This document shows positions 16,673-17,777 of a stretch of 64,000 nucleotides of DNA, in pieces. This DNA is from Thermococcus sp. 21S9. Its GTDB lineage: Archaea > Methanobacteriota_B > Thermococci > Thermococcales > Thermococcaceae. Numbering within the stretch: position 1 is the stretch's first letter; every line of letters starts with the position of its first letter. The position numbers were made by a program, and so were the translations under genes. The DNA lies in the NCBI RefSeq assembly GCF_012027635.1, contig NZ_SNUS01000001.1, positions 434,001 to 498,000 on the forward strand, read 5' to 3'. The notes below the pieces were generated by a model, which saw only the letters and a program-made list of their open reading frames with translations, did no database searches and was not told the origin of the DNA.

Positions 16673-16897
16673 TGCGAACACCTCCAAGAAAGGTGGTTTT
16701 TAAATCTCTGGTGAGCGTTGCCCGGCCGATTTATAAGCTTTTCCCCCGGGCAAGACTCACAACGGCCTTTGAGAAAGCTTCGCCAAAAGCAACCCTTCTC
16801 ACTTAGGCAAAAAGTCAGTCGTGCACTAACCAAGTACAACTTTGAAGGGGTTTAACACATTAAACAGACATTTTCACACAGTTTCACATTTTTTATC

Positions 16898-16914
16898 GGC
16901 GCCCTTCGGGCGCC
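16898..16914. repeat. Hairpin of repeat unit 1
   Basis: GGCGCCC-TTC-GGGCGCC. Compared with unit 3, the fifth stem pair is C-G here and T-A there, a compensatory change that keeps the stem intact. Confidence 0.8.
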
Positions 16915-17189
16915 TTCTCCAAGTGAAACACTCAAAGATGGAGCAAATCCAGTAGAAACCCCCTTCAAAACTTGCACTCTTAAAAAAGGCACCTCTTTTC
17001 CGTCAGCGCTTGCGAAGGAAGCTTTTGAGAAAGGCTTCACCAAAGAAACTTTGCCAAGCAAAAGTTTCATCAAAGTTTGTGATTCTTTTAGCTGGAGCTC
17101 CGTTGAGAGTGTTTGCGCTTTTAACGGCTTTTGCAGGTTGTGAATTCTCCGGATTTTGATAGCTCTCTCACATGGGTTTACTTTTTCTC

Positions 17190-17206
17190 GCGCTCCAGAG
17201 GAGCGC
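17190..17206. repeat. Hairpin of repeat unit 2
   Basis: GCGCTCC-AGA-GGAGCGC. Stem length (7 bp), loop length (3 nt) and the following TTCT are the same as in units 1 and 3, while the stem sequence differs at paired positions. Confidence 0.75.
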
Positions 17207-17481
17207 TTCTTAGAGAAACCCTCTCTGCTGGCTCCTTTTGGAGAGAATTCCTTTTAGAATGCCACCTTTTGAGGATGCAAACTTCTTAGGATTGCGTTCT
17301 TAGAGAAAAATCACGAACCTTGGTCAAACTTCGCGCAGGCGAACAAGCTTTAAGAAAGCTTGACCAAACAAGTGCCCTTCCCCCCCAAAGAGCAAGAAGT
17401 CAGTCGTGCACTCTCGAATTGGGAAATTCAACACGAGTTTAGCATTAAAGGAGCCTCTTGAACTAGTTTCAACTCATTTTT

Positions 17482-17498
17482 GGCGTCCTTCGGACGCC
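17482..17498. repeat. Hairpin of repeat unit 3
   Basis: GGCGTCC-TTC-GGACGCC, located 292 bases from hairpin 2 and 584 from hairpin 1. Confidence 0.8.
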
Positions 17499-17608
17499 TT
17501 CTCAGAGTGAAACACTCACCAAAGAGCAAATCAAAAGAAACTCCCCACAATTGTTGAATTTCAAAAAGGCACATCCTCTTCCGCCAGCGCTTGCGAAGCA
17601 AGGGCTGA

Positions 17609-17686
17609 TGGCGGGCCGGGCGGGATTTGAACCCGCGACCTTCGGCTCCGGAGGCCGACGCTCTATCCAGGCTAAGCCACCGGCCC
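17609..17686 (-). tRNA. tRNA-Arg (anticodon CCG)
   Basis: On the minus strand the acceptor GGGCCGG pairs with CCGGCCC, followed by discriminator G and an encoded CCA. The anticodon stem TCGGC/GCCGA encloses loop CTCCGGA with anticodon CCG, reading codon CGG. The T arm GCGGGTTCAAATCCCGC is complete. No intron. A TATA-like gatttttaag (minus strand, around 17715-17724) lies upstream. The tandem hairpin repeat lies directly behind its 3' end. Confidence 0.95.
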
Positions 17687-17777
17687 ACCCCGGAGTAAAT
17701 ACCGGCAGGGGCTTAAAAATCTTAACCCGGGATAAAGCTTTTTAGAGTTCATGAGAAGAGTAAAATAGGTGAACGTC

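Follow-up and report, generated by a model that had tools for sequence, protein, structure and literature searches.

Palindromic repeats stacked behind tRNA 3' ends in Thermococcaceae: a probable family of non-autonomous mobile elements

Several described systems resemble in part the repeats analyzed here. MITEs and foldback elements are short, non-coding, multi-copy sequences with terminal inverted repeats and presumed mobilization in trans, and the Rickettsia palindromic elements (RPE) are short, dispersed, hairpin-forming, multi-copy sequences that lie in genes, in frame. Among retroelements, TRE of Dictyostelium and Ty1 and Ty3 of yeast insert next to tRNA genes at a set distance, a behavior associated with the idea of a safe haven. 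Thermococcales have SSV-type and pT26-2-type integrative elements, which are large, code for an integrase and carry their att site within the tRNA gene. According to two reports, SSV-type and pTN3-type elements integrate in tRNA genes of Thermococcales (PMC8371274; PMC5495485), and large inversions in these archaea have tRNA genes as breakpoints (PMC5495485). The family presented here shares its short, non-coding, multi-copy constitution and its terminal inverted repeats with MITEs and foldback elements; it differs from them in that no parent transposon was found, in its extreme target preference, and in that no target-site duplication was detected at 88 tRNA arrays, direct repeats being found only around a sister element. 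As in RPE, the elements are short, dispersed, hairpin-forming and numerous, and the sister element lies in operons, sometimes in frame; unlike RPE, the main family is archaeal, tied to tRNA 3' ends, capped at both ends and stacked in arrays, and its members in the window are intergenic, with 1-nt indels between copies. The likeness to TRE, Ty1 and Ty3, insertion beside tRNA genes, may be taken as an analogy only, as the elements here lie directly behind the CCA, are non-coding and palindromic, and nothing about them suggests a retroelement; with the integrative elements of Thermococcales they have the use of tRNA genes as sites in common. The family is filed here with the palindromic or foldback repeats and is proven neither as a MITE nor as an RPE.

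The window, a stretch of 64,000 nucleotides from Thermococcus sp. 21S9, contains an array of three palindromic repeats of about 285 bp that abuts the 3' end of a tRNA-Arg(CCG) gene (17609-17686, minus strand; ARAGORN and Rfam tRNA), whose genomic CCA is 1 nt from the nearest cap hairpin. The repeats follow each other in the order type A (tRNA-distal), type B and type A' (tRNA-proximal), and all three combine capping hairpins and paired ends with a 7-bp hairpin in the middle. A first-pass annotation of the window had singled out the three central hairpins, which start at 16898, 17190 and 17482 at a spacing of exactly 292, have a 7-bp stem and a 3-nt loop and are directly followed by TTCT or CTTCT, and it had placed the end of the block beside a tRNA; the sequence bears out all of this. 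Its view of three tandem copies of one 292-bp unit has to be given up, as sequence comparison and blastn assign units 1 and 3 to the same type (A; about 70% identical, period about 584) and unit 2 to another (B), and a shared element length of about 285-295 bp accounts for the even spacing. The distal motifs it reported as common to units 1 and 3 are present, GTCAGTCGTGCACT at 16814 and 17399 and CAGCGCTTGCGAAG at 17004 and 17585.

Copy 1 (type A; 16762-17021, plus strand), recognized by its match to positions 31-291 of the A profile and by blastn to other A copies, lacks the left tip of the family model and has GGCGCCC TTC GGGCGCC as its central hairpin (16898-16914). The junction of copies 1 and 2 is occupied by a hairpin, GAAGCTTTTGAGAAAGGCTTC (17018-17038), and the junction region at 17007-17087 is the best-conserved part between genomes, at about 88-91%. 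Copy 2 (type B; 17045-17345, plus strand), delimited by a match of B profile positions 1-303 to 17045-17351 and by an alignment of 30 copies (A1), opens with the left cap hairpin GAAACTTTGCCAAGCAAAAGTTTC (17045-17068) and the left terminal inverted repeat ATCAAAGTTTGTGATTC (17069-17085, plus strand), which pairs with 17309-17328 in a terminal helix that is 97% paired over the 30 copies; the central hairpin GCGCTCC AGA GGAGCGC (17190-17206) and the right terminal inverted repeat AATCACGAACCTTGGTCAAAC (17309-17329, plus strand), assigned from sequence and terminal-helix pairing, follow. Two junction hairpins, TTCGCGCAGGCGAA and CAAGCTTTAAGAAAGCTTG (17330-17362), connect B to A'. Copy 3 (type A'; 17330-17607, plus strand), supported by a match of A profile positions 1-295 to 17313-17606 and by pairwise identity, carries the central hairpin GGCGTCC TTC GGACGCC (17482-17498) and ends in the tRNA-proximal cap hairpin CAGCGCTTGCGAAGCAAGGGCTG (17585-17607); like caps begin a few nt past the CCA at many tRNAs. 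Small ORFs at 16852-17073 and at 17551-17745, which cross the repeat and run into the tRNA, are likely spurious; annotations of relatives may list them as hypothetical proteins.

Profile models for four types, A, B, C and D, were applied to 40 stretches from relatives, to about 30 orthologous tRNA-Arg(CCG) regions and to the window's genome. The element ends are cap hairpins of the form GAAACTTT..AAAGTTTC, CAAACTTCG..CGAAGTTTG or CAGCGCTT..AAGGGCTG; inside them lie paired terminal repeats and then less conserved arms, and the center is a GGGTTT..hairpin..AAACCC stem enclosing the hairpin with the 7-bp stem and 3-nt loop. All four types stack as arrays that extend away from the tRNA. Folding is better than that of shuffled sequences (z -2.7 to -4.4), and 92-93% of cells in the pair counts are paired, a value that falls to 35-51% once the partners are slid. 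The stems covary, as the first-pass annotation had proposed from three hairpins, and dozens of copies retain the pairing of the central hairpin. In type C the terminal helix switches en bloc (AU14/GC10, GC13/AU10, CG14/UA10), as does the central hairpin, and in type A one pair of the central hairpin is UA15/CG15; type B shows less variation and little covariation. The first-pass reading of the block as non-coding also holds, and the 1-2 nt indels that separate element copies argue against a conserved reading frame.

Selection on an RNA as such finds no support in the mismatches; that annotation had named an RNA element as one possibility among others. In the central hairpins of 157 element copies, mismatched pairs on the tRNA strand are 37 G.T and 41 A.C, and this absence of a strand bias gives no sign that one transcribed strand is preserved, since an RNA would favor G.U on one strand. 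A second count, 121 G.T to 66 A.C, was not relied on, because its stems were chosen by RNAalifold under RNA rules that permit G.U and one arm was off by one. The palindrome thus seems to matter as DNA, or a palindrome-correcting mutation process may keep it complementary, and DNA-level palindromes would explain the covariation at least as well as RNA.

Searched with 16730-17608 as the query, the window's own genome gave 29 matches, the query itself included, at about 20 places, some of them spanning 500-600 bp at 75-76% identity; two further types as queries gave 26 matches. In the census built from these searches and the stretches examined, 19 of 20 arrays have their start 0-7 nt past the 3' end of a tRNA, and the twentieth (L038) follows a conserved 67-nt putative RNA gene. 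The chance that a given array falls within 10 nt of any of the 45 tRNA ends is near 2 in 10,000. About 22 of the 45 tRNA genes have an element directly 3' of the genomic CCA, at a distance of 0-5 nt, and where two tRNA genes stand in tandem (Glu-Ile, Asn-Met and Ala-Val) the element lies only behind the last tRNA. The search for copies elsewhere, one of the checks proposed with the first description of the block, returned matches in 75 of 94 Thermococcaceae genomes, and elements adjoin 87 distinct tRNA 3' ends of many isoacceptors, the cap starting a few nt past the CCA. With genome-wide matches and pairing kept over dozens of copies, the pattern in the window is far beyond chance.

Elements strongly prefer one orientation relative to the tRNA (A 45:7, B 34:9, C 23:3, and D 2:12, the strand of the D model having been picked arbitrarily). 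A strict pattern of tRNA plus cap, counted on forward strands only because overlapping matches inflate reverse-strand counts, occurs at 368 of 1352 tRNAs in the window's genus, at 27 of 147, 7 of 238 and 5 of 57 in three other genera, at none of 16 in a fifth, and at none of 221 in genus g3, which is probably Pyrococcus, a guess on our part. An independent sample of 34 exact cap matches in GTDB contigs comes entirely from Thermococcaceae; 24 are at tRNA ends (21 by ARAGORN and three clear tRNA ends) and one is at the 67-nt putative RNA gene. Searches of plasmid and phage collections gave no match, and carriage on the plasmids and phages known from those collections was rejected.

Nine arrays lack a tRNA, and they were rejected as counter-examples because seven of them end at the same conserved 67-nt sequence, GCCCGACGAGTACGGGGTTGCGATGACGTCGGG...GCCCCCC (L038:2566-2632, minus strand; also L132 and other loci). 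This sequence is single-copy and highly conserved in 75 of 94 Thermococcaceae genomes, among them 8 of 9 g3 genomes, which have no or almost no repeats; a TATA-like motif lies upstream, Rfam contains no family for it, and it is probably an undescribed small RNA gene. Across 25 of its loci, filled sites mostly read CCCCCC-TTAC-element and unfilled sites continue differently. The remaining two arrays end at a tRNA fragment (L120) and at neither kind of gene (L124). At L120:470-515 the element's neighbor is a fragment from the 3' side of a tRNA-Val gene: either the 3' half of a tRNA is enough as a target, or an integrated element brought the array along. A second GC-rich repeat, GGGGGTTTGAGAGTACAGAGAGATAAGGGGGCGGAGCCCCCTTGTCTTTCGTT, adjoins tRNA ends or these elements at L012, L070, L074, L075, L084, L085, L087 and L124.

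The position almost only behind tRNA 3' ends points to a small mobile element with tRNA genes as its target. We interpret the block in the window as an array of a non-autonomous, palindromic (foldback, MITE-like) mobile repeat that targets the 3' ends of stable RNA genes, mostly tRNA genes, and from the genomic comparisons we put the probability of this reading at roughly 0.6. It is rather unlikely that the repeats are instead a functional part of the host's tRNA loci, with caps acting as 3' trailer, terminator or chromatin boundary and gene conversion homogenizing the copies: the hairpin right behind the CCA, the orientation bias, the maintained pairing and a tRNA-Arg(CCG) site that is filled in most species would suit such a role, but about half of the tRNAs in the window's genome and all those counted in g3 do without an element, element type and number vary freely, and the wobble bias expected of an RNA from the tRNA strand is absent.

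The arrays turn over. At orthologous tRNA-Arg(CCG) genes the proximal element is A, B, C, D or none, depending on the species. Copies 99.3% identical are found at Arg-CCG and Lys-TTT of one genome, copies 98.2% identical at two Leu tRNAs of the window's genome, and A' of the window shares 96.9% identity with a tRNA-Pro(CGG) copy of a related species; such 97-99% identity at different tRNAs, together with the species-dependent type, indicates that elements disperse, and ectopic gene conversion could be an alternative origin of the identical copies. In one clean orthologous pair (L116 and L119) the outer flank is nearly identical and B is 96.8% identical, the body of A has been exchanged, and in L116, not in L119, a further complete C element separates A from the RNA gene; in the closely related G025, whose outer flank is the same, flank and first tip are conserved and the array contents differ. 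Both comparisons show that elements are gained and replaced within arrays. Recombination between arrays also happens, as shown by a shared block of 463 bp (97.6%; G018) with one edge inside an A element.

A shorter sister element of about 110-190 bp has the same cap and, in most cases, a central hairpin. Seven of the 34 cap matches belong to it; within operons, these seven sit at a start codon or a short way upstream of one (L169, L187, L181, L165, L172, L178 and L189; L165 is at the same gene pair as L181). Direct repeats surround it in at least two independent cases, 17/17 bp at L187 and about 51 bp with few changes at L181; they are weaker at L169 and L172, and none was found at L178 and L189. 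Several sister elements are open in frame and end at or near the repeated ATGA, and their small in-frame ORF ends ...FPPALAQARAV.... The direct repeats support genuine transposition by elements with this cap, although the tRNA arrays lack repeats of this kind.

We consider it unlikely that the repeats form an ancient palindromic family at tRNAs whose only present means of movement is ectopic homologous recombination among arrays, the large tRNA-bounded inversions of Thermococcales included. The additional complete C beside the RNA gene in one of two matching arrays, the targeting of an unlinked 67-nt RNA gene in both filled and empty states, and the direct repeats flanking the sister element all go against this, while shared blocks that have an edge within an element, the exchanged body of A in otherwise identical arrays and the role of tRNA genes as inversion breakpoints (PMC5495485) fit it.

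A family of structured small RNA genes is a very unlikely source of the pattern. The RNA folding z-scores (-2.9 to -4.4) and the covariation in type C, to which this explanation would appeal, stand opposite a balance of G.T and A.C on both strands, variable loops and the lack of any Rfam family above cut-off for the window elements, and the inverted repeats by themselves produce the folding signal. Mobilization of a hairpin-ended IS200/IS605 derivative by Y1 TnpA, in the manner of PATE, is improbable to a still higher degree: it would account for the terminal hairpins, for the absence of target duplication at tRNAs and for the TTAC or NAC that often, not constantly, precedes the cap, yet PF01797 occurs in only 25 of 94 genomes and has no match in the window's host (G000) or in most element-rich genomes, G022 and G025 included, which largely rules out Y1 TnpA as the general mover. 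Remnants of att sites of SSV-type or pTN3-type tyrosine-integrase elements, suggested by the reported integration of these elements in Thermococcales tRNA genes (PMC8371274; PMC5495485), are hardly credible, since such att sites lie within the tRNA sequence and leave tRNA copies, whereas the elements here start past the CCA and 88 arrays showed no duplicated tRNA 3' sequence at the end away from the tRNA (mean score 6.3 vs 5.8 for shuffles; only three above all shuffles). The first-pass annotation was right that a tRNA 3' end as integration site is relevant, in that a mobile element and not a host gene is probably involved; its remnant of a single integrated element gives way to a family dispersed over this genome and its relatives, at the 3' ends of tRNAs.

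Returning to the mobile repeat, the observed location, orientation, anatomy, dispersal and turnover could be produced by a trans-acting DNA nuclease or recombinase. The enzyme would recognize the hairpins of the caps, probably in cruciform or single-stranded form, and link the element to a nick or break in the DNA immediately 3' of the RNA gene. Such an insertion would leave the tRNA and its internal sequence intact, and repeated insertion together with recombination between arrays would then swap and stack elements. Neither a transposase nor an integrase was found in association with the family, and no ends common to an autonomous transposon were seen in the loci examined. More tentatively, and at somewhat less than even odds, we propose an archaeal transposition system in which a putative enzyme inserts hairpin-capped palindromic DNA right behind stable-RNA 3' ends in a fixed orientation, sensing the end or the transcription of the RNA gene and not a DNA consensus.

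No description of the family was found in Rfam or in the open literature searched, including papers on tRNA integration, transcriptomes and inversions in Thermococcales, so that it appears undescribed there. If the proposal is true, it would be a prokaryotic counterpart of the targeting of tRNA genes by eukaryotic retroelements. Arrays lie at roughly a quarter (strict pattern, genus-wide) to half (window's genome) of the tRNA genes, and they would represent a tRNA-gene-specific repeat family in Archaea. The arrays may account for small spurious ORFs annotated beside tRNA genes; they would supply homology exactly where Thermococcales chromosomes rearrange, and the family would give a handle on a putative recombinase working on hairpins at hyperthermophilic temperatures.
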